Notes under the pieces: generated by a model
Seen by the model: the letters and a program-made list of their open reading frames with translations, nothing else
The model's database searches: none
What the model was told of the DNA's origin: nothing
Made by a program: the position numbers and the translations under genes
Part shown: piece after piece, positions 55,539 to 64,000 of the stretch
How the letters are laid out: each line of letters starts with the position of its first letter
Numbering within the stretch: the first letter of the stretch is position 1
Assembly (NCBI RefSeq): GCF_000812865.1
Contig: NZ_JSYL01000002.1
Location: 744,001-808,000 of the forward strand
Source of the DNA: Kaistella jeonii
GTDB lineage: Bacteria > Bacteroidota > Bacteroidia > Flavobacteriales > Weeksellaceae
DNA: 64,000 nucleotides
Direction of reading: 5' to 3'

Positions 55539-55592
55539 TCAGCAAGTAGCAACCATTAAAGTCAAAACAATTAATAATAAAAGTTTTTTCAT
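55539..55592 (-). CDS. 17-codon lipobox-like peptide, possibly vestigial
   Basis: A reading frame of 17 residues, MKKLLLLIVLTLMVATC followed by a stop. It looks like a bare lipoprotein signal peptide ending at the lipobox cysteine. Its ATG overlaps the TGA of the upstream gene at 55589 (ATGA), so it could be translated by coupling. It may be a lipoprotein cut off by deletion at the end of the array, or a toxin/lysis-type micro-lipoprotein. Coding status is uncertain. Confidence 0.3.
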   Translation of the reverse strand: MKKLLLLIVLTLMVATC

Positions 55593-56005
55593 TGTTGAGT
55601 AAAATAAGTTATGATTCCAAAGTTTGTTAATCCTAAAATTAATGAAATTGGAAACATCAAAATATTCCCCATTATTCCCATAAATATTGTAGCAGGAATA
55701 TTTGATAACACTTCATTTATTGGTTCTTTAATTAAGAGCGCAAAAAAATTTCCAATAAATATAATTATCATACAACTTAAAACAGATAACAAAATTAATT
55801 TTAGCCTTCCGTAAATTTCAAAATTTGAATATTTAAAAAACACGATATAAAAAACAATGCAAGCAATTGACATTCCTGCCATTAATGGATAATTTACACT
55901 TTCTCCAAATGAACTTTTTCCACCAAAAAATAAAATTCCATTTCCGATAGTCAGATTGGTTAAAATAATTGCTAAAGATATTTTTTTGCCGATTGTGTTC
56001 TTCAT
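55589..56005 (-). CDS. Small four-helix membrane protein (last cassette gene)
   Basis: The start is placed at 56005 (MKNTIGKKISLAIILTNLTIG); a longer frame would reach into the attC-like element. The 138-residue product has four hydrophobic helices, near residues 8-28, 42-60, 70-92 and 105-128, and no recognised motif. It is the leftmost minus-strand gene of the cassette array. No attC-like element follows it on the left, so its cassette end is lost or this is the array's fixed edge. Confidence 0.55.
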   Translation of the reverse strand: MKNTIGKKISLAIILTNLTIGNGILFFGGKSSFGESVNYPLMAGMSIACIVFYIVFFKYSNFEIYGRLKLILLSVLSCMIIIFIGNFFALLIKEPINEVLSNIPATIFMGIMGNILMFPISLILGLTNFGIITYFTQQ

Positions 56006-56034
56006 TTGGTTTTGTGTCTTTCGGAAAATTTCCA

Positions 56035-56166
56035 CTACGGTTCTCGGCTTCAAGATGCGGCGGAAATCTAAGCACGAATCTTCAATTTTGCACTAAAGCT
56101 TTCTTGAAAAAACTGAACTTGAATTTAGCGCTAACCGCGCCATATTGCCAAACCGATGTTAGCGAT
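56035..56166 (-). repeat. attC-like element A (degenerate left end)
   Basis: The left half GGTTCTCGGCTTCAAGATGC and the right half GCGCCATATTGCCAAACCGA can pair. The right end is the conserved GATGTTAGCG; the left end reads ACTACGG where other copies have AACG, so that core is mutated. Confidence 0.7.
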
Positions 56167-56171
56167 AATTT

Positions 56172-56939
56172 TTATTCTTCTTTTTCAAGGTTAATATTTT
56201 TTTTAATTGATGTTGAAATAGTAATGCCGCTATTTTTCAAAAGTTTAGGGTTCATTTTACCAGATTTTGTGGTTCTAAATTCCAGTTCAAAACCCGTTGT
56301 AATTGATGTTGCGTCAACATATTTAGATTTTAGGAAGGTCAATTCTCCACTACTGCGAATTTTTTTCACGATCTCATCTTTGTACTCATAGTATTTATCT
56401 TTACTATTATCGCTTCCATCCTCCCTTTTAGGTGGTGTTTTCAGTAAAATGGATGTGTATATCGACAGTTCATCAATACTTTTTAAATCTTTCCATTTGA
56501 TCACTGTATTTTTAGTTAAGTCGCCTCGTTCATCGCATTCTATGTTTTCAATTTTTTCTTCGCTTAAAGCCTTAATAGTGCCCAATATATATTTTTGCCC
56601 ATCTGTCAATTTAATTTCGACGGTATAGGTATCATTTACCGGAATATCTGATAAGTGATATTTTGATTCATCCGTGTAATATAAACCTTGTTTATGATAC
56701 AATTCTCCCTCAACACCATTTACAATTATTGTTATGGAATCATTTCTAATGATTCTACCTTTTTTATCGAATAAATCGACAGAAATTCCATTGTCCTTTT
56801 TGTCCGTCGGGCTTTGTGTGATATCAATAGTTGCACCTATCAATTCAATTTTTTCCACTTTTTCTGTTGAAAGGTCTGAATTGCAAGATAATAGAGAAAG
56901 TAGACATAAAAAAAATATAAATGTTTTTGGATTTTTCAA
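56172..56939 (-). CDS. Cassette-borne lipoprotein
   Basis: A 255-residue lipoprotein (LSLLSCNSD, Cys19). The sequence is rich in strands and charged residues; residues 35-130 (ISVDLFDKKGRIIRNDSITIIVNGVEG, VNDTYTVEIKLTDGQKY) have a beta-sandwich feel similar to DUF4249-type surface lipoproteins, but I cannot assign it firmly. Its stop is 5 nt from element A. The unit is bounded by GTTAGCGATAATTTT on the left and a near-complement AAAATTACCGCTAA on the right, as expected of one cassette. Confidence 0.65.
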   Translation of the reverse strand: MKNPKTFIFFLCLLSLLSCNSDLSTEKVEKIELIGATIDITQSPTDKKDNGISVDLFDKKGRIIRNDSITIIVNGVEGELYHKQGLYYTDESKYHLSDIPVNDTYTVEIKLTDGQKYILGTIKALSEEKIENIECDERGDLTKNTVIKWKDLKSIDELSIYTSILLKTPPKREDGSDNSKDKYYEYKDEIVKKIRSSGELTFLKSKYVDATSITTGFELEFRTTKSGKMNPKLLKNSGITISTSIKKNINLEKEE

Positions 56940-56970
56940 AATTTTGTCAATGTTTGTTGGTCAGTAAAAT

Positions 56971-57060
56971 TACCGCTAAAGGTTCTCAACTTGGCGATTT
57001 TTAGGCTTAAAAAAGGCCCGGAACTTTCAATAATTACTGAACTTCGTCGGAATTTCTCTA
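56971..57060 (-). repeat. attC-like element B, half only
   Basis: It starts TACCGCTAAAGGTTCTCAAC and continues with TTGGCGATTTTTAGGC and ACTGAACTTCG, matching the left and central parts of element E. No matching right half or AAC...GTT partner is present. It appears truncated by a deletion that reached the preceding cassette gene. Confidence 0.5.
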
Positions 57061-57437
57061 TCTTCAGACTTGGGTTGAATAATTGTTAGATCTAAATTTT
57101 CTTTTGTTTCAACAGGTGTTAATCTTATGAATGTATTATCTTTTTTAATAAAATTATATTAAGTTGTTTCTCCTGCTTGGTGCCAAACAGTAGGAATAGT
57201 GTCCGTTTTGTATCCTTTCTTAACAAAAACTAAATCTTCTAAAAAATTCGAACTATGTCTATCAAAGCTGAAATATCCGGTTTTATCCGTTTTAGTTTGA
57301 TTTTCGCGATAAAGTTCCAAAACCAAAACATTTTCAAGCGGATTATTATTTTCATCTATAACTCGACCTTGATAAAAGTTGTTTGTTTGAATGCAAGATA
57401 TTTGCATCAAAACTGTTAAATAAAAAATATATTTCAT
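57027..57437 (-). pseudogene. Carboxypeptidase-regulatory-like lipoprotein with in-frame stop
   Basis: The intact part (57159-57437) encodes a 92-residue lipoprotein (Cys15 in MQISC) with a CarboxypepD-reg-like domain: GRVIDENNNPLENVLVLEL, KTDKTGYFSFD and LVFVKKGYKTDTI. A TAA at 57159-57161 ends it after GETT. The same frame then continues for 43 sensible codons (YNFIKKDNTFIRLTPVETKE onward) to a TGA at 57027. This looks like a nonsense mutation in a gene of about 136 codons. The last few of these codons may come from the half element B. Confidence 0.6.
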
Positions 57438-57476
57438 TTAGTCTTAAATTTGGTTTGGTTACGGACGTTTTTAAAT

Positions 57477-57613
57477 TACCGCTAACGGTTGGGTATTTCT
57501 GTTGACGGGGATTTTTTATAAAAGGTCTTTGTAAATATAATAAATTGAACAACTAGCAAAAATCTTTATGTTAGGAACTTCCGACCCGCTAATAGAAATG
57601 CCGTGTTGTGCAA
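57477..57613 (-). repeat. attC-like element C
   Basis: Left end CCGCTAACGGTTGGGTATTT and right end AATAGAAATGCCGTGTTGTG form an imperfect palindrome with inner GACGGGG / CCCGC arms. The AAC and GTT cores are present. It lies directly after the stop of the HigA-like gene. Confidence 0.8.
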
Positions 57614-57622
57614 TCGTTTTTT

Positions 57623-57913
57623 TTACGCTGTAGTAGGATTCACATGTAATTGTCCACCAACGGCTTTAAGAACTTTCATTATTGTTGCGAATTGTGGTTT
57701 AGCACCGTCTGATAACGCTTTGTATAAACTCGGTCTACTAAGTCCTGTTTCTTCTGCAATTTTAGTCATTCCAATCGCTTTAGCAACAGTTCCAATTGCG
57801 ACAATTATATCTGAGTCATTTCCTTCTTCCAGAACAGTATTAAGATATTCTGCAATCATTTCGTTATTGTCCAAGTAATCTGCAATGTCAAATTTTGTTG
57901 TATTCATTTTCAT
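57623..57913 (-). CDS. HigA/HI1420-type antitoxin
   Basis: A 96-residue DNA-binding antitoxin. FDIADYLDNNEMIAEYLNTVLEEG is the family's N-terminal signature, followed by a Cro/C1-type helix-turn-helix (MTKIAEETGLSRPSLYKALS) and the C-terminal LKAVGGQLHVNP. It neutralises the toxin encoded immediately upstream and should repress the operon. Its ATG overlaps the toxin stop by one base. Together they form one cassette bounded by elements C and D. Confidence 0.9.
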   Translation of the reverse strand: MKMNTTKFDIADYLDNNEMIAEYLNTVLEEGNDSDIIVAIGTVAKAIGMTKIAEETGLSRPSLYKALSDGAKPQFATIMKVLKAVGGQLHVNPTTA

Positions 57914-58212
57914 TATTTCTTTAATTTATTCCAGATTTGAAACGCTTTTTCAATGTCCTTTTGTTGAGTTGATTTATCTCCGCCAATTAGAAGAATAATG
58001 ATTTTTCCCTCAGTCTCCTTAAAGTAAATTCTATAACCTTTTGCGTAATTAATCTTCAACTCATTAATTCCATTTCCAACTGGTTTAAAATCGCCGAAAT
58101 GTTCGTCAGTTTCTAATTTCTGAATTCGAAACAAAATTTTTGCTTTTGCTCTTAAATCATTCAATTTTCTAAACCATTTGTCAAACTCTTCTGTTTTTTC
58201 AATAAAGTACAT
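57913..58212 (-). CDS. RelE/ParE-superfamily toxin (HI1419-type)
   Basis: A 99-residue protein of the HigB/RelE-ParE fold: TEEFDKWFRKLNDLRAKAKILFRI, DFKPVGNGINELKINYAKGYRIYF and IILLIGGDKSTQQKDIEKA, matching the phage-derived Gp49/HI1419 addiction-module killer family. It probably cleaves mRNA on ribosomes. Toxin-first order with the antitoxin downstream is usual for this subtype. It has a -7 box and operator-like palindrome upstream, so the cassette carries its own promoter. Confidence 0.9.
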   Translation of the reverse strand: MYFIEKTEEFDKWFRKLNDLRAKAKILFRIQKLETDEHFGDFKPVGNGINELKINYAKGYRIYFKETEGKIIILLIGGDKSTQQKDIEKAFQIWNKLKK

Positions 58213-58220
58213 ATTAAAGT

Positions 58221-58236
58221 GTATTCATTTGGATAC
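58221..58236. promoter_or_regulatory. Operator-like inverted repeat
   Basis: GTATTC atttG GATAC is a near-perfect inverted repeat 8 nt upstream of the toxin start, between it and its -7 box. This is a plausible HigA binding site for autoregulation. Confidence 0.4.
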
Positions 58237-58245
58237 AAAACTAAT

Positions 58246-58253
58246 CAAAATTA
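58246..58253 (-). promoter_or_regulatory. -7 box for the toxin-antitoxin cassette
   Basis: TAATTTTG on the minus strand, 33 nt upstream of the toxin ATG. Confidence 0.45.
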
Positions 58254-58299
58254 TTGAATTTAAAAATTAATTTTTTTTGGGGACGGTCTTTTTAAAATG

Positions 58300-58434
58300 T
58301 TGCACAACGTTTTGCGTATTGGCGATGGGCGGGCTTTTTGGCGATAAACTTCAAACGAAGAAATAAAATTCAGACTCGCGAAAATCTTCTTTAGAAGACG
58401 AAACCCCGCCTATTGCCAATACGATGTTAGCTGT
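58300..58434 (-). repeat. attC-like element D
   Basis: Left end TTGCACAACGTTTTGCGTAT and right end CCAATACGATGTTAGCTG. Inner arms TTGGCGATGGGCGGG and CCCGCCTATTGCCAA pair well. The TAA stop of the GNAT gene lies inside the right GTTAGC core. Confidence 0.85.
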
Positions 58435-58972
58435 TCGTTGTTTTCTGTCTTGTTTTTTCGTTAAACTTTTCTCTTGTAACAGTCATTTTATATGATTTCC
58501 AGTTTTCGTTATTCACTTGTGTTGTCGTTTCGTTGATAGATGTTATTTTGAAACCGACGTTTTCATATGATTTAATTGCTGAAGTATTAAAGTCATAAAC
58601 ATTCAAGTCAACAGATTTTGTATTCAAATTGTCAAAACTCCACTCGGTCAGTATTTTTGTTAAAATAGTTCCATAACCTTTACCACGAAAATTTTTGTCG
58701 CCAATAAGTATTCTGCAAAGTCTGCTGTTTAGTTCATCCGTCTTATACGCTTCACAATGTCCAATTGTTGTATTTGTGTCACTGTGAATAATTTTAAAAG
58801 CGTGTCGTTTGCTGTCAGAAAGATATTTACTCAATTGTTCCTTTGTCAATGGGAAGCTGAAAATTGGACCTGCAAATTGAATAAGTTCCTTTTCATCTTT
58901 AACCCAAGAAATCAATGTATTAAAGTCTTTCTCAAAAAATGTTTCAATTCTAATATTTGGGTCGGTTTTCAT
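58427..58972 (-). CDS. Cassette-borne GNAT acetyltransferase
   Basis: A 181-residue N-acetyltransferase with the acetyl-CoA loop NFRGKGYGTILTKIL and C-terminal YDFNTSAIKSYENVGFKI, typical of Acetyltransf_1 proteins. The substrate is unknown; acetyltransferases for antibiotics or amines are common integron cargo, but nothing here identifies one. The stop codon TAA is part of the core GCTAAC of element D. Cassette termini GTTAGCTGT and ACAGCTAAC are exact complements. Confidence 0.88.
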   Translation of the reverse strand: MKTDPNIRIETFFEKDFNTLISWVKDEKELIQFAGPIFSFPLTKEQLSKYLSDSKRHAFKIIHSDTNTTIGHCEAYKTDELNSRLCRILIGDKNFRGKGYGTILTKILTEWSFDNLNTKSVDLNVYDFNTSAIKSYENVGFKITSINETTTQVNNENWKSYKMTVTREKFNEKTRQKTTNS

Positions 58973-58994
58973 TTTTAGTTTTGTTTTTACAATG

Positions 58995-59130
58995 ACAGCT
59001 AACGTTTCTCGGCTTGGCGATGTGGCGGATAAAGAAGCCGAAACCTTCTATTAGCACTGAACTTCAAAGGATGCAAAAATCTTTGATTTAGCACTAAACC
59101 CGCCATATTGCCAAACCGATGTTAGCGGTA
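58995..59130 (-). repeat. attC-like element E
   Basis: Left end ACAGCTAACGTTTCTCGGC, arm TTGGCGATGTGGCGG; right arm CCGCCATATTGCCAA and end CCGATGTTAGCGGTA. A loop of about 75 nt lies between the arms. The stop codon of the 59122 gene is in the right core. Confidence 0.87.
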
Positions 59131-59886
59131 GTACGTTTTCTCGTAATAGTTGTAACCTATTTTATTTAGAGCATTTTTAACAGTTTCTTTGTCAGATATT
59201 TTGTGAATAAAAAATGTATATTCTACAGGTTCTTCAATGTATTTAGTATCTATAAATCCTATTTGTAACCCGTTTTCTCTTAATGGCTTGTCAAAATATT
59301 CAAAAATCTCATCATCAGAATTTGCTGTTGTTCCATCACATTTTTCGTGTTTTTGAAACTCTATCGATAGATTAAAATTTTCTTTTGAAGAATTTTTCAA
59401 TTTCACTTCAGAATTTTCAAAGCCTGATTTCATTTGCATATCAGAAGAAATGATGAAGCTGATTTCATTTGCATACAAATATTCTGCAACCCGATAAAGT
59501 GTTACAGAGAATTCCTCTTCCGAATAATCTCTTAATTGATTAAAAAAATCGATAAGTTTTGGTTGTAATCGTGTTGCTACACAGAGTTTTGTTAGTGTTA
59601 TAAAACCATCCTTTTCTTCTTCTGAAATTGCGGGATAATCTTCGTGAAAATATCCATTATATAAGTTATCTGCTTCTTCATCATCGTCATAATTCAAAAC
59701 TTCATTTTTTTCAGTATTTCCAAATAAATCAGTTCCTGTCATAACATCTTTGTTCCAAGTGTAAAACATTAGTGCGCCAATGCAACAAATCCAATATATA
59801 AAATCAAAATTATATTTTAAGCCAATCGTTAGAATTAGGGATATGCTTAAAAATAGTATTGTGTAAAATAAAATATTTTTCATCAT
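59122..59886 (-). CDS. Cassette-borne membrane-anchored protein
   Basis: A 254-residue protein with two N-terminal hydrophobic helices (residues about 4-22 and 26-42) and a large soluble part with no family I recognise. The region YDDDEEADNLYNGYFHEDYP is acidic; later FITLTKLCVATRLQPKLIDFFNQL is helical, and the end EYTFFIHKISDKETVKNALNKIGYNYYEK could be a small alpha/beta domain. The TAA stop uses the GCTAAC core of element E, and the last residues (YYR) are encoded at the site edge. Termini GTTAGCGGTA / TACCGCTAAC match exactly. Confidence 0.7.
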   Translation of the reverse strand: MMKNILFYTILFLSISLILTIGLKYNFDFIYWICCIGALMFYTWNKDVMTGTDLFGNTEKNEVLNYDDDEEADNLYNGYFHEDYPAISEEEKDGFITLTKLCVATRLQPKLIDFFNQLRDYSEEEFSVTLYRVAEYLYANEISFIISSDMQMKSGFENSEVKLKNSSKENFNLSIEFQKHEKCDGTTANSDDEIFEYFDKPLRENGLQIGFIDTKYIEEPVEYTFFIHKISDKETVKNALNKIGYNYYEKTYYR

Positions 59887-59926
59887 TGTATCTTAACTAT
59901 CGAATGGCGTTGTCGGTGGGTCGTAT

Positions 59927-60060
59927 TACCGCTAACGGTTGGGTATTTCTGCAGGCGGGGCTTAAAATGCAAACTCTTTCTACTTGCCAAAATAGTGAAA
60001 ATATCTGAAATCTTCAACTTATAAATTCAACCCCGCTTGTAGAAATACCATGTTAGCAGA
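59927..60060 (-). repeat. attC-like element F
   Basis: Left end TACCGCTAACGGTTGGGTAT, arm TTTCTGCAGGCGGGG; right arm CCCCGCTTGTAGAAATACC and end ATGTTAGCAGA. The arms pair almost throughout, with the short asymmetries near the ends seen in attC sites. Confidence 0.88.
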
Positions 60061-60071
60061 TGCACTTTTTT

Positions 60072-60539
60072 TCAGTAAATTTTATAGTTGCCATATTTTT
60101 TCTTGTAATCTTTGTTTAAATTCAGATAAATTAATGAATCTTTTTTAATTATAAATTGTGAATTACTAAATTCTGTAAAAGTTATTGAACTTGATTCAGG
60201 CAGGCAATTTGTAATTGTTGTTACCATTGATTCAAATGTTTCTTTTGTATTTAAAGAAAAGTCGTCAATGTATAAACACTTATTTGGTCTCAAAGAATTT
60301 AAAGTTATGGTATCATTTTTTTGACTCCAAATTCCTTCAGAGTATAATTTACTAATATGCCCGGCTTCTTGATATTTAAATTCGTTATTATTTAATAAAG
60401 TTAATGTTGCATTTGAATATGGATATCTGACAACTTTCCAATCTTTTATGAAAGTGTTCTTTATTTCAAATTTAGAATTTTCCACTTTTGAGCAACTAAA
60501 TATTGCGAGCAAAATTGATAAAATTCTTATTATGCGCAT
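60072..60539 (-). CDS. Cassette-borne lipoprotein
   Basis: A 155-residue lipoprotein (ILLAIFSCSK, Cys16). The mature part reads like a lipocalin-type or NTF2-like small domain: KDWKVVRYPYSNATLTLLNNNEFKYQ, GIWSQKNDTITLNSL, YLNLNKDYKKKYGN. This resembles Bacteroidota lipoproteins with a WKV...F...W pattern, but I make no family call. The unit is bounded by GTTAGCAGA (element F) and TCTGCTAAC (element G), exact complements. Confidence 0.7.
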   Translation of the reverse strand: MRIIRILSILLAIFSCSKVENSKFEIKNTFIKDWKVVRYPYSNATLTLLNNNEFKYQEAGHISKLYSEGIWSQKNDTITLNSLRPNKCLYIDDFSLNTKETFESMVTTITNCLPESSSITFTEFSNSQFIIKKDSLIYLNLNKDYKKKYGNYKIY

Positions 60540-60554
60540 AGTTGGTAAAGTGTT

Positions 60555-60690
60555 TCTGCTAACGTTTCGCGGCTTGCAGAAGTGGCGAACTTCGTGACCG
60601 AGTTTTTTCGGCTAAGATAAAATATCTTGCGGAAAATGAAAGTGAATTTACCACATATTTGGCCATTTATGCAAACCGCTGTTGTATGAG
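60555..60690 (-). repeat. attC-like element G
   Basis: Left end TCTGCTAACGTTTCGCGGC, right end GCAAACCGCTGTTGTATG. Arms CGGCTTGCAGAAGTGGCGAA and TGGCCATTTATGCAAACCG pair with internal mismatches. Confidence 0.82.
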
Positions 60691-61742
60691 GTTGCGACAC
60701 GTAAGTTAAGAACGAATGTTTATCTACAATAATTTTCTACTGCTATTGCGAAAAACTTTTCCGTTTTTCCTTTTCCGGTTTGATTCAAATTTCTGCTTTT
60801 CCGTTTAGTTTTTCTGATTCTAAAACGTTTTTTAAAAAGTCGATAAGCACAGTTAGTTTGGCTTTTCATAAAGTGAATCAAGTTTGCTTTTCCGCAAGTT
60901 TATAGACCAAAATTTTTACTCTTTAATTAAAATTTCTTCTTTTCCGTTTAGTTTTTTCCGATTCTAAAATGTTTTAAAAAAAGTCGATAAGCACAGTTAG
61001 TTTGGCTTTTCATAAAGTGATTCAAGTTTGCTTTTCCACAAGTTTATAAACAGCAATTTTTCCGCAAATATGTTTAGATAAAATTCTGGTTTTTGTGATA
61101 AATCTCTTTGAATTGAGGTTTTGAATTAGTTCGCAGGAGCAATCGCATACAACGTTTCGCGGCTTGCAGAAGTGGCGAACTTCGTGACCGATTATTTTCG
61201 GCTAAGATAAAATTTCTTGCGAAAGATAAACGTGAATTTACTACATATTTCGCCATTTATGCAAACCGCTGTTGTATGAGGTTGCGACACGTAAGTTAAG
61301 AACGAATGTTTATCTACAATAATTTTCTACTGCTATTGCGAAAAACTTTTCCGTTTTCTATTTTCCGTATTGATTCAAATTTCTGCTTTTCCGTTTAGTT
61401 TTTCCGATTCTAAAACGTTTTTTAAAAGGTCGATAAGCACAGTTAGTTTGGCTTTTCATAAAGTGAATTAAGTTTGCTTTTCCCCAAGTTTATAGACCAA
61501 AAATTTTCCTCTTTAATTAAAATTTCTTTTTTTACTTTTAGTTTTTTCCGATTCTAAAACGTTTTTAAAAAAGGTCGATAAGCACATTTAGTTTGGTTTT
61601 TCATAAAGTGATTAAAGTTTGCTTTTCCTTAAGTTTAAAAACTGTCACTTTTCCGCAAAATATTGTCCGAATAAAATTCTGATTTTCCGATAAATCTCTT
61701 TGAATTGAGCTTTTGAATTCGTTCGCAGGAGCAATCGCAGAC
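60561..61742. repeat. Tandem duplication of a cassette without a clear gene (two about 590-bp units)
   Basis: Unit 1 (60561-61150) and unit 2 (61151-61742) are near copies, each starting with an attC-like element (G or H) and ending GCAGGAGCAATCGCA. Each unit contains two copies of an inner repeat of about 143 bp (near 60787 and 60929; 61377 and 61519). The inner repeats carry TTTTCCGTTTAGTTTTT, GTCGATAAGCACAG and TTTGGCTTTTCATAAAGTGA. On the minus strand a 49-codon frame (60869 to 60720, MKSQTNCAYR start) is open in unit 1 but is stopped early in the other three repeats, so protein coding is unlikely. It may encode an RNA or be a decayed gene. Confidence 0.75.
61146..61280 (-). repeat. attC-like element H
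   Basis: Nearly identical to element G: CATACAACGTTTCGCGGC at the left and GCAAACCGCTGTTGTATG at the right. It is the junction of the two duplicated units. Confidence 0.82.
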
Positions 61743-61872
61743 AACGTTTTGCGGCTTTGCGATGGTGCGGCTAAAAATGCCAGATCTTTCTATTATACAC
61801 TAAATTTCGGAATATCTAAAATCTTTAAACTTGCGAAAATTCCGCACTATTGCAAAACCGCTGTTAGCGGTA
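61738..61872 (-). repeat. attC-like element I
   Basis: Left end CAGACAACGTTTTGCGGC, arm TTTGCGATGGTGCGG; right arm CCGCACTATTGCAAAACCG and end CTGTTAGCGGTA. Confidence 0.83.
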
Positions 61873-61876
61873 GTGA

Positions 61877-62554
61877 TTATTCATTTTCTTTTCTTGCAAA
61901 CTCCAAAAATTCTTCTAAATAATATTCACCTTTACTTAGTTTTTTAATAATAGCAGGATCATTATTATTGAAATTCGCAACATCTTTTGCAGTTAATAAC
62001 ATAACTAAAGCGTTTTCTTTATAACTAGGACTCATAGTTGGAAATTCAGCATTATAAACAAGTATTTTATAATTATTTCCATCCCTATCTTTCCATTCAG
62101 TATTATTAGGTTTATATAGAGCAGAGGCAACCAATCCACCACCATATGGATTTCCATTACGTCCAATTGCTTTTTTATCTTTTTTTGTATCAAGAATGAT
62201 TACATTGAATTTCTTTCCAGTAACAGTAAATTTTCCAAAAGCGTGATCTTGGGCTATTTCATAATTTGTTAATAGTAAATTATGAAATAACTGATCTTTG
62301 TATTTTATTCCCCAAATTGTGTAACCTTTTTTTATTTTTTTATTTGTTGATTCTGCAAGAATTTCTTTATAAATAATCGAATTTGGATTTTCTTCTTTAA
62401 TTGTTATATAAGCCTTCTCAGGAATATTTGGTTTGTTGTTAACAAAATCATTGTATGTGAAGTAATAATCGATAGATTCCTTTCTTACTTCAGTTTGTCC
62501 AGATATTATTACTGAATTAATTAATAATAATAAAAATAAAATTTGTTTTTTCAT
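61877..62554 (-). CDS. Cassette-borne secreted protein
   Basis: A 225-residue protein with a signal peptide (MKKQILFLLLLINSVIISGQ). The mature part contains ITIKEENPNSIIYKEIL, KFNVIILDTKKDKKAIGRNGNPYGGGLVAS and NGNPYGGG; no known family is recognised. It ends in a charged helix (EEFLEFARKENE). It is probably periplasmic. The cassette ends GTTAGCGGTA / TACCGCTAAC are exact complements, the same type as the 59122 cassette although the genes are unrelated. Confidence 0.68.
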   Translation of the reverse strand: MKKQILFLLLLINSVIISGQTEVRKESIDYYFTYNDFVNNKPNIPEKAYITIKEENPNSIIYKEILAESTNKKIKKGYTIWGIKYKDQLFHNLLLTNYEIAQDHAFGKFTVTGKKFNVIILDTKKDKKAIGRNGNPYGGGLVASALYKPNNTEWKDRDGNNYKILVYNAEFPTMSPSYKENALVMLLTAKDVANFNNNDPAIIKKLSKGEYYLEEFLEFARKENE

Positions 62555-62580
62555 ATTTTGAATAATTGTTTTTATAGCAT

Positions 62581-62713
62581 TACCGCTAACGGTTGGGTAT
62601 TTATGCAGGCGGGATAAAAATACGAAAACTTTCTACTTGCTAAAAACTAAATTAATCGCTAAAATCTTCAATGAAAACTTCCTACCCGCTTGTATAAATA
62701 TCTTGTTATCGGC
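62581..62713 (-). repeat. attC-like element J
   Basis: Left end TACCGCTAACGGTTGGGTAT, arm TTATGCAGGCGGG; right arm CCCGCTTGTATAAATATC and end TTGTTATCGGCT. Same subtype as elements C, F and K. Confidence 0.86.
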
Positions 62714-62725
62714 TGTAACGATTAT

Positions 62726-63235
62726 TTATTTTTCGATTTCAATTTTCTGAATAGCATAATCTCCTTTTCTGTAAGTTATTCTGACATTTATTCCATTTTG
62801 TAAAACACCATTATTGGTTTCACTAAATCGATTGAATTTACCAAGTAAATAATCAGCATATGCAAATTTCATAGAATCGACTTCAAAACTTTCAAATGTT
62901 ACAGTTGCCTGTCTTTTATATTCAATTCTTCTATTGAATTTTTTAATTACACCTTCAACTTTTCCAACTTTTGTAGAAGATAAAATTTTGTTTATTCTTT
63001 TTTCAGTATCGTCTTTGACAAAAAATTTTAAATAAAAGTATGCAGGAACTGAAAGGGTCAAAAACAGTGTTGTTAAAACTATATAGAGTTTTTTTTCAAA
63101 ACCTGACTCTTTAAATTTAATTATGGCAATTAGAGTAATTAGAGATAAAATTAAAAGTATAAGACAAATTGAAGTCGGAGAAGTTGAATTACTTGGTGTG
63201 TCTAATATTGACCAATACGTATAATATTCCATCAT
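62726..63235 (-). CDS. Cassette-borne small membrane protein
   Basis: A 169-residue protein with two hydrophobic helices, near residues 20-42 (SICLILLILSLITLIAIIKF) and 50-70 (LYIVLTTLFLTLSVPAYFYL). A soluble C-terminal domain of about 95 residues follows, rich in beta-strand pattern (VGKVEGVIKKFNRRIEYKRQ, VRITYRKGDYAIQKIEI). No family is recognised; a fold resembling DUF3592-like proteins is possible. Termini GTTATCGGCT / AGCCGATAAC are exact complements and unlike those of its neighbours. Confidence 0.68.
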   Translation of the reverse strand: MMEYYTYWSILDTPSNSTSPTSICLILLILSLITLIAIIKFKESGFEKKLYIVLTTLFLTLSVPAYFYLKFFVKDDTEKRINKILSSTKVGKVEGVIKKFNRRIEYKRQATVTFESFEVDSMKFAYADYLLGKFNRFSETNNGVLQNGINVRITYRKGDYAIQKIEIEK

Positions 63236-63263
63236 TTAATTTTTGGCACCGTTTTTTAGTTAT

Positions 63264-63350
63264 AGCCGATAACGGTTGGGTATTTGCGAAGAAAGCCCCT
63301 GTTCATCAAGTAAATTCGGGGCTTTTTTTGCAAATACCATGTTGTAGGAT
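63264..63350 (-). repeat. attC-like element K (short form)
   Basis: Left end AGCCGATAACGGTTGGG and right end AAATACCATGTTGTAGG. Arms GGTATTTGC and GCAAATACC, then AAAGCCCC and GGGGCTTT pair almost perfectly, with a loop of only 20 nt. The inner stem plus T-run also looks like an intrinsic terminator. Confidence 0.85.
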
Positions 63351-63358
63351 GTGCTTTT

Positions 63359-63649
63359 TTAAATCTCGATTGAAATATTAACCTTTCCACCAAGTCCTTT
63401 TTCAACGATATCAAACAAAGTTTTAAGCGTCAAATTACTTCCATTGTTTTCAATTTTTGAAATATATTCACGCTTTTTGTCAACCAAATTTCCTAATTCA
63501 GTTTGAGTAAGTCGTTTTTCTTCGCGTGCTTTTCTTAATTGCAGACCGATTTTAAAGGATGCGAAATCTCTGTCCAATTCATCACGTCTTTCTGTTCCAG
63601 TTTTTCCGTAAACTTCATCTTTTATTTTTGTCCAACTTTTAGTTTCCAT
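63359..63649 (-). CDS. HigA-like XRE-family antitoxin
   Basis: The start is placed at 63649 (METKSWTKIKDEVYG), 11 nt inside the toxin gene; the longer frame adds seven unlikely residues. The 96-residue protein has an N-terminal KTGTERRDELDRDF segment typical of antitoxins paired with Gp49-type toxins, then a helix-turn-helix (LRKAREEKRLTQTELGNLVDKKREYISKIENNG). It should bind and neutralise the upstream toxin and repress the operon. The stop lies 8 nt from element K, as in other cassettes. Confidence 0.88.
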   Translation of the reverse strand: METKSWTKIKDEVYGKTGTERRDELDRDFASFKIGLQLRKAREEKRLTQTELGNLVDKKREYISKIENNGSNLTLKTLFDIVEKGLGGKVNISIEI

Positions 63650-63992
63650 TTTTTTTAGATTTATCTTCATAATATTGAGCCATAATTTTTAAGGCTTTTA
63701 AAATTTCATTTTTTGGCGTTTTTTGAGTTTTCTTTTGAAATGCATTCATTAAAACAACTAATTTTTCGCCGTCAAAAAAACAAAAAACCCGCCAAATATT
63801 TGAGCCGAGTTGTATTCTTGCTTCATAAAGTCCATCAGTTCCAACAATGTGTTTTAAGTAATTTGATGGAACACGTTCTAAAGTTTCAATTGCCTCAATA
63901 ATTTTATAAATCTTATTTTGAACCTTAATTTCTTGGCTCGAAATAAAATCCTGGAAATAATTTTTAAAAGCAATAACTTTTCTTACTTTCAT
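63639..63992 (-). CDS. HigB-like (Gp49 family) toxin
   Basis: A 117-residue protein with the phage-derived Gp49/HigB pattern: YKIIEAIETLERVPSNYLKHI, GLYEARIQLGSNIWRVFCFFDGEKLVVLMNAFQKKTQKTPKNEI. The GLYEARIQ and FxKKTQKTP motifs are diagnostic of the family, which includes ribosome-dependent mRNA interferases. It forms an operon with the downstream antitoxin gene. The cassette's promoter side lies beyond the window edge. Confidence 0.9.
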   Translation of the reverse strand: MKVRKVIAFKNYFQDFISSQEIKVQNKIYKIIEAIETLERVPSNYLKHIVGTDGLYEARIQLGSNIWRVFCFFDGEKLVVLMNAFQKKTQKTPKNEILKALKIMAQYYEDKSKKNGN

Positions 63993-64000
63993 TTCACAAA

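Follow-up and report, generated by a model that had tools for sequence, protein, structure and literature searches.

A Kaistella jeonii gene-cassette array with attC-like sites, probably run by a tyrosine recombinase without the IntI additional domain

The right end of a 64,000-nucleotide stretch of Kaistella jeonii contig C2 (the window) carries genes separated by imperfect palindromes, which raises the question of whether this is an array of mobile integron cassettes and, if so, which enzyme moves them. Our reading, to which we give a probability of roughly 0.87, is that the region belongs to a chromosomal integron, of which it forms the distal part and which is probably run by an integrase that lacks the IntI additional domain. 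In the window there are ten complete attC-like palindromes plus a half site, all of them on the minus strand, the same count that a sequence-only reading had given. A covariance model (CM) recovers all ten complete elements; the half site, B, was recognised by eye and gave no match with the model in a search of the window. The model was built from eight of the ten window elements and seven elements from other contigs, which leaves A and G as the only window elements independent of it. From the right edge inwards the features are:

63639..63992, minus strand: Gp49-like toxin candidate (PF05973, E 3.8e-20); its cassette starts 81 bases beyond the window, at the end of C2
63359..63670, minus strand: helix-turn-helix antitoxin candidate (PF01381, E 1.3e-10)
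63270..63344, minus strand: attC K, CM match, short form of 75 nt, closing the toxin-antitoxin cassette at its 3' end; bottom-strand DNA fold z -4.9
62726..63235, minus strand: cassette gene, 169 aa, no Pfam match at 0.001
62587..62708, minus strand: attC J, CM match
61877..62554, minus strand: cassette gene, 225 aa, no Pfam match at 0.001
61742..61866, minus strand: attC I, CM match, fold z -2.3
60685..61741, minus strand: no convincing gene in the units between I, H and G; inside them, near-repeats of 144-145 nt (D1, D2)
61150..61274, minus strand: attC H, CM match
60560..60684, minus strand: attC G, CM match, repeat D2; the units with G and H share 95% identity over 300 nt
60072..60539, minus strand: cassette gene, 155 aa, ORF, lipoprotein-like by eye
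59933..60055, minus strand: attC F, CM match
59122..59886, minus strand: 254-aa cassette gene, DUF6630-like at 26.9 bits, slightly short of the 27-bit cut-off
59000..59124, minus strand: attC E, CM match, fold z -5.4
58427..58972, minus strand: GNAT acetyltransferase (PF13302, E 1e-10)
58305..58429, minus strand: attC D, CM match, fold z -4.3
57913..58212, minus strand: Gp49-like toxin candidate (PF05973, E 4e-8)
57623..57913, minus strand: addiction-module antidote (PF21716, E 4.1e-44)
57483..57608, minus strand: attC C, CM match
57159..57437, minus strand: cassette gene, 92 aa, ORF, lipoprotein-like by eye
56970..57020, minus strand: half site B, right arm only, GTT changed to CTTT
56172..56939, minus strand: cassette gene, 255 aa, ORF, lipoprotein-like by eye
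56035..56161, minus strand: attC A, CM match (E 1.5e-7), right core altered
55589..56053, minus strand: last array gene, an ORF; the CM search finds no attC match after it (none on C2 below 800035)

We take the Gp49-like label of PF05973 to denote a HigB/RelE-type protein. The claim that all genes here lie on the minus strand holds for the cassette-fitting ORFs from 55.6 kb to the window edge; the plus strand carries antisense ORFs as well, as long as 140 aa. The claim that each element sits just downstream of a gene fails for the two units around G and H (60.7-61.7 kb).

The elements have the structure expected of attC sites. The pairing of the inner arms between the AAC and GTT cores is borne out by covariation: 96.5% of cells are paired over 17 pairs, 14 of which changed on both sides, and cells changed on both sides number 517 against 163 in shuffles, in an alignment fitted to the structure and hence biased towards pairing. 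A scan for AAC and GTT with complementary arms returned six elements in the window and none in any of ten Markov-simulated windows, at a threshold that misses four of the ten window elements. Of 268 related elements, 265 span 119-127 nt from AAC to GTT; K is shorter. In five DNA folds the pairing of the arms is complete or broken by a 1x1 mismatch, and the extrahelical bases that canonical attC carry were not observed in them. The R boxes depart from the consensus, as had been noticed from the letters: RYYYAAC fits 11 of the 268 elements and GTTRRRY only 6. No Rfam family reached its gathering score in 55-64 kb of the window.

Repeats of the MITE or REP type, lying after genes by chance, had been named as the alternative, and the spread of the elements lends it something: the genome holds 46 CM matches at E ≤0.1 (45 of them below 1e-6) on nine contigs, some of them single. 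The strand, however, is uniform within each attC cluster, and the complementarity spans genes rather than the element. The two ends of one cassette, hundreds of bases apart, are complementary at 0.748, against 0.386 when shuffled (sd 0.010, 1000 shuffles, 224 cassettes), while the two ends of one attC score 0.409 and are not complementary, the outer ends being unpaired although the inner arms pair. At least five of six end bases are complementary in 191 of the 224 cassettes, with 33 failing, and a recount gave 43/50 overall and 8/9 for window cassettes; even at half site B the bases 3' of the altered GTT still match the end of the next cassette. Complementarity of cassette ends across the gene is also expected of Vibrio-type integrons. 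On this test the repeat reading was rejected, and shared units that include the gene and stop at GTT contradict it too; we regard it as extremely improbable.

The integron reading is further supported by the movement of units. Each cassette consists of one gene or none plus one 3' attC and is bounded at GTT, and the longest ORF runs in the sense direction in 209 of 224. The same cassettes recur at other positions and in other species. Each of the 25 pairs of shared cassettes has a differing neighbour (2 additionally have one in common), and in the 16 of these 25 pairs that were tested for it, identity stops at GTT on the 3' side. Within the K. jeonii genome two cassettes have two upstream partners each, with 170 nt 100% identical from G/TT. 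By these comparisons the cassettes behave as independent mobile units apparently cut at G/TT, a point resolved only to within the invariant GTT. Together with cassette-end complementarity and the GTT junctions, this upholds the earlier suggestion of an integron or attC cluster.

No integrase lies within the window, as had been stated, but the first 170 bases of contig C3 are the last 170 of C2, and if C3 follows C2, a tyrosine recombinase gene and an attI lie about 1.06 kb past the right window edge. Contig C24 ends in the same 170 bases, which leaves the C2-C3 join ambiguous. With that ambiguity, the C3 recombinase just past the edge is likely the array's integrase and probably resolves the missing enzyme. 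A search for an intI gene beyond the right edge or elsewhere had been suggested; what C3 provides is a tyrosine recombinase but not a canonical IntI, of which none scores above cut-off in this genome. The sequence-only reading did not foresee an integrase other than canonical IntI.

The C3 integrase, a tyrosine recombinase of XerA/IntI-like type, carries an extension of some 70 residues at its N-terminus. It lacks the IntI additional domain (about 41 residues), which its alignment to IntI4 skips, and its motif-to-motif spacing is 66, against 106-107 in three canonical IntI; the spacing is 63-66 residues in 70 of 80 measured relatives. Its best NCBIfam profile is that of XerA (NF040815; 220.9 bits, a marginal pass at a cut-off of 220), a score exceeding that on the integron-integrase profile (TIGR02249; 201 bits, cut-off 265). 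It resembles XerA and Xer enzymes in this and in lacking the additional domain, and differs from them in its extension and in the neighbouring attI and attC arrays. An AlphaFold model matches XerA first and IntI third, from which we draw no claim because its pTM is only 0.53 (mean pLDDT 81). In a careful tree of 69 of 110 rows, which left out L236 (in the wrong reading frame in a quick tree), the integrase branches outside IntI. The AU test did not reject IntI with clade 1 (p 0.082) or clades 1 and 2 together (p 0.42), and gave p 0.017 for IntI with clade 2 and p 0.027 for all three together. Given these outcomes, a separate origin of the domain-less integrases is favoured, not proven.

The putative attI, judged by conservation, adjoins the integrase gene: across ten species identity is 87.5% over 81 nt ending in GTT and 34% thereafter, directly beside the domain-less integrase in each. 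Of 29 loci, 20 have an attC no more than 1.5 kb from the integrase, always on the integrase strand. Clade-1 integrase genes point towards the cassettes, with attI at their 3' end. Seven of 20 clade-1 loci have a candidate cassette promoter Pc, TANNTTTG, no more than 130 nt from the integrase stop (1.1 expected; one further locus was skipped); in the K. jeonii genome it is absent there.

The position of attI bears on a reading that assigns cassette movement to host Xer recombinases or to an IS91-associated recombinase. Two probable Xer genes are indeed present in the genome, as is a companion recombinase of IS91 type, and in other systems folded single strands can serve as Xer substrates. Yet attI sits beside the C3 integrase, the 1.5-kb flanks of the two probable Xer genes and one phage-type integrase contain no attC (0/3), and the reading frame of the IS91-type enzyme on C1 is broken in two. 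We hold this reading to be highly unlikely.

Searching related genomes with the covariance model, as had been proposed, found the attC type in all 36 genomes from the same genus and, across the phylum, in 139 of the 296 genomes sampled. Seven of the 36 gave no integrase match at 1e-40. The attC type is present in 79 of 94 phylum genomes with a domain-less integrase versus 60 of 202 without (odds ratio 12.5, p 8e-19), leaving 15 integrase-bearing genomes without detected attC and 60 with attC but no integrase. Where the integrase match is 1e-100 or better, 56 of 61 genomes have attC, and the association persists both with and without canonical IntI.

A canonical IntI, elsewhere or in other strains, might still move the cassettes, with the neighbouring integrase a bystander. 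Such enzymes score above cut-off in 84 of the 296 phylum genomes (25 of which also have a domain-less integrase), and 10 of the 59 without a domain-less integrase have the attC type. That is fewer than the 50 of 143 with neither enzyme, however, and only one of the 84 genomes (G094) belongs to the window's class. Twelve canonical IntI loci gave no strong attC match and just three weak ones (E 1.6e-4 to 0.01), and the ten-species attI, too, adjoins the domain-less enzyme. This alternative is thus improbable, if marginally less so than the Xer one; the attC type tracks the domain-less integrase, not canonical IntI. In a generic scan covering 38 loci, arrays showed up beside Bacteroidota integrases, except at L134 and L159. 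The loci of less closely related recombinases (Patescibacteria, Archaea, Alphaproteobacteria, others) had no array, and five of them had a single match each; the scan misses canonical attC, so canonical integrons may exist there. A rough and insensitive canonical-attC scan gave two 60-nt candidates in IntI locus L241, one each in L250 and L198, and none in domain-less loci.

The system shares with the Vibrio-type sedentary chromosomal integron an integrase gene, an attI with a GTT core, unidirectional and mostly one-gene cassettes, and attC with AAC/GTT cores and paired arms whose bottom strand is the more stable fold (127 of 150 sampled elements). It differs in its integrase, which has the N-terminal extension and no additional domain, in R boxes that seldom fit GTTRRRY, and in the clade-1 orientation. 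Among the features of a canonical integron, attC structure and, judged from sequence, attI and mobile cassettes are thus present, and the IntI additional domain and R box consensus are absent. The window on its own, and smaller clusters on C4 and C11, resemble a CALIN; unlike one, the array has an integrase and attI placed next to it by the contig overlap, subject to the C24 ambiguity.

Cassette boundaries, attC folding, the attI beside the integrase, cassette sharing and the attC-integrase association can be read from the genomes themselves, and from them we infer that the C3 integrase catalyses cassette recombination. It would fold a single attC strand, probably the bottom one, cut between G and TT, and join the cassette to the attI directly downstream of its own gene. 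In the clade in which integrase and cassettes read the same way, a new cassette would therefore be inserted beside the integrase gene at its 3' end. An enzyme without the additional domain would have to grip the folded hairpin by other means, and imperfect inverted repeats in attI may be sites for the N-terminal extension. Papers call the additional domain necessary for IntI, and activity without it therefore needs proof.

The best reading of these data is an integron lineage widespread in Bacteroidota and run by a domain-less integrase. In the passages concerned, published integron searches use the additional domain to define the integrase, and one published survey, in the part at hand, lists a single complete integron in Bacteroidetes; with the absent domain and the box counts, this suggests that standard tools probably miss the lineage. 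A broader proposal, to which we give slightly less than even odds, is that Bacteroidota carry a second widespread integron system, with a domain-less XerA-like recombinase and its own attI architecture and attC family, and that integrons are not one lineage. If so, integron recombination would have arisen more than once, or would predate the additional domain, which would then be a later gain of the known IntI clade. If the best reading is right, the additional-domain criterion overlooks a system whose attC occur in every genome of the genus that was searched and in nearly half of the sampled phylum genomes. Such a system would allow a natural test of whether recombination of folded hairpins needs the domain, and would offer a large and so far unread store of mobile cassettes.

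The array at the right end of the window is an integron by its anatomy and by the traces of recombination that its sequence carries. This bears out what the sequence-only reading had proposed, though not as a member of the canonical family. The ten complete attC-like elements and one half site counted there were confirmed. The window's contig, C2, ends 81 bases beyond the window, in a 3.26-Mb genome of 35 contigs. A covariance model for attC, built from 15 elements, matched this genome in 46 places with E up to 0.1, and 45 of these matches are below 1e-6.

Covariance-model attC hits in the Kaistella jeonii genome, by contig
C2 end: 10 hits, minus strand
C23: 11 hits, minus strand
C24: 5 hits, plus strand (a sixth was seen on searching the fetched loci)
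C29: 6 hits, plus strand
C1 start: 3 hits, plus strand
C4:177906-179634: cluster of 3 hits, plus strand
C11:20402-30126 and C11:53559: 4 hits on the minus strand and 1 on the plus strand
C7:215452: 1 hit, plus strand
C3 start: 1 hit, minus strand
C3:165220: weak hit

The smaller clusters and single sites remote from the integrase (C4, C11, C7) resemble CALINs or off-site insertions. At the C1 start (locus L026:2119-4158), an IS91-family transposase and its companion tyrosine recombinase, which is broken into two reading frames, are surrounded by attC sites, placing an IS within the array. Two gene-less units at window positions 60561-61450, 95% identical over 300 nt and with inner near-repeats of ~144 nt, represent a cassette duplication in which no gene is obvious. 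Some attC hits in same-genus and Flavobacterium arrays (L121, L122, L151) are about 158-191 nt long. The arms of the elements covary, and in DNA folding the bottom strand is more stable than the top for 127 of 150 elements drawn from the 268, with 2 ties (mean fold energies of -17.8 for bottom, -15.5 for top and -8.9 kcal/mol for random segments).

The search for an integrase gene beyond the right edge or elsewhere in the genome, which the same reading had called for, led to C3:1147-2190 (minus strand), encoding a 347-aa tyrosine recombinase. If C3 follows C2, this gene adjoins the array about 1.06 kb beyond the window edge, a single cassette lying in between. The integrase of same-genus genome G001 and a Kaistella pullorum protein are each 76% identical to it. 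Directly after the integrase stop lies attI, which in ten of 13 fetched clade-1 same-genus loci shows 87.5% identity over 81 nt up to GTT and 34% in the next 60 nt. Two of the other three loci have different repeats but a similar end before GTT, and in the third the reading frame enters the site. The attI contains imperfect inverted repeats; in several other genera, distinct repeats are joined to a similar end. The genus also has a second integrase clade, 37-46% identical, that is divergent from its array (genomes G026, G013, G029, G032), a layout shared with canonical integrons; by identity, both clades occur in G026, G007, G018 and G011. The clade-2 attI differs from that of clade 1 and has the core CGTATATTTG...GTT in 9 of 11 cases. 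The -7 element of Bacteroidota promoters is TAnnTTTG; the resemblance of the core TATATTTG to it suggests that the clade-2 attI may carry a cassette promoter.

Integrons are cut in G|TT, so that whatever follows GTT is part of the next cassette and is expected to be complementary to the bases preceding AAC at that cassette's far end. The window and 46 loci, two of them overlapping by 2 kb, gave 291 profile hits, of which the 268 elements with both cores were kept and defined 224 cassettes. The two ends of the same cassette match at 0.748 of 8 positions, and at ~0.9 of positions 1-5 (n=224), compared with 0.386 (sd 0.010) for shuffled partners, 0.4135 for the highest of 1000 shuffles and 0.409 for the ends of one and the same element. 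At least 5/6 end matches were found in 191 of 224 cassettes versus 8.4% of random pairs; the remaining 33 fell short. When 11 typed sets were recounted from covariance-model coordinates, one core-less pair being left out, 43 of 50 cassettes passed; in the window 8 of 9 passed, but the pair C to A spans half site B and is not a clean case. At locus L135, whose hits are weak and possibly false, 0 of 3 pairs passed. By eye, the test is also passed by the toxin-antitoxin cassette and by the cassette that comes first after attI.

Cassette bodies have a median of 657 bp, and in 209 of 224 the longest ORF runs in the sense direction, with a small bias from the 60 bases of attC granted to sense ORFs. 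Full-length pairs shared at 75% identity and 80% length had a different neighbour in 25 of 25 cases, 2 of them also having a shared neighbour. Many of these pairs lie inside one array and others between species, for example G000 (the window's genome) with G030 at 96.9% and with G006 at 95.8% identity. In 16 of the 25, aligned with their flanks, identity runs up to GTT and drops immediately beyond it on the 3' side, and on the 5' side remains at 0.5-1.0 upstream of GTT because the neighbouring attC occupies that side. Within the window's own genome, the initial 170 bases of the toxin-antitoxin cassette occur after the attC on C3 as well as after that on C24, and those of a leucine-rich-repeat cassette occur after attI as well as after the final C23 attC, each 100% identical from G|TT. 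If the assembly is right, either both cassettes are present twice or the culture was mixed, and each option implies that these sites recombined recently.

The integrase differs from canonical IntI in lacking its additional domain. The alignment to IntI4 (2a3v) leaps from chain residue 179 to 247, a stretch over which the query advances from 248 to 274. Two conserved motifs, found in all but 30 of 110 sequences, are 63-66 residues apart in 70 of the 80 relatives measured and 70-74 in 7, whereas three canonical IntI measured have 106-107. The protein scores 201 bits against TIGR02249 (cut-off 265) and 220.9 against the XerA profile NF040815 (cut-off 220). IntI (100/100), clade 1 (99/100) and clade 2 (100/100) form separate branches in the tree; by the AU test, IntI with both clades is rejected weakly (p 0.027) and IntI with clade 1 is not rejected (p 0.082).

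Run on related genomes, as had been suggested, the attC model matched all 36 same-genus genomes, for a total of 42 among 60 relatives; the integrase occurs at E 1e-40 in 29 of the 36. A first attC model matched 19 of 80 named loci, all of them Bacteroidota going by their titles. Across 296 genomes of the phylum, with attC cut at E 1e-4 and the integrase below 1e-70 (set after Xer scores near 1e-57 had been seen), the domain-less integrase was found in 94, attC in 139 and both in 79 (odds ratio 12.5; p 8e-19, a value that ignores kinship among genomes). At E 1e-100 or better, 56 of 61 integrase genomes have attC. Of the 94, 42 are at least as close as the window's class, while 52 fall in other classes. 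Canonical IntI, frequent in the phylum's other classes under the GTDB delimitation of the phylum, occurs in 84 of the 296, one in the window's class, and 25 have both types. The association of domain-less integrase with attC holds without canonical IntI (58/69 vs 50/143) and with it (21/25 vs 10/59), and genomes with only canonical IntI have attC less often (10/59 vs 50/143). The attC type is present without the domain-less integrase above the cut in 60 of the 296 genomes, 50 of them also without canonical IntI; some may have integrase fragments below the cut, and some may be CALINs.

An attC lies within 1.5 kb of the integrase in 20 of 29 loci (including L219, which also supplied the model), always on the integrase's strand and downstream in 19, as against none at 3 Xer or phage-integrase loci and none at 5 IntI loci. 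Among 20 contrast regions, 8 domain-less loci hold 39 attC matches with E no higher than 1e-5 plus a single weaker match, and 12 canonical loci hold 3 weak matches only (E 1.6e-4 to 0.01); the 8 were chosen knowing attC was present, so only the canonical side is informative.

In the portions consulted, the IntegronFinder 2.0 study (PMC9024848) states that only In0 had previously been found in Bacteroidetes and adds a single complete integron for that group, from Salinibacter ruber. Bacteroidota are named among phyla with integrons in parts of PMC9668308, where the additional domain is described as both necessary and defining, and of PMC8618304; an excerpt of PMC2426708 lists the Bacteroidetes/Chlorobi group, with genes picked by the additional domain or the intI patch. 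The insertion is called 'not fully conserved' in an integron-like subgroup, yet essential for function, in a section of PMC8138268, so domain-less relatives were already on view as sequences. Excerpts of PMC8352920 and PMC8876359 make no mention of Bacteroidota, and among the titles and abstract openings listed by full-text searches, whose scope excluded preprints and most subscription journals, none describes the present system. Two defining features that we tested were absent, which places the system outside the canonical integron family. With catalysis predicted from sequence, it most likely works like an integron through a different integrase.
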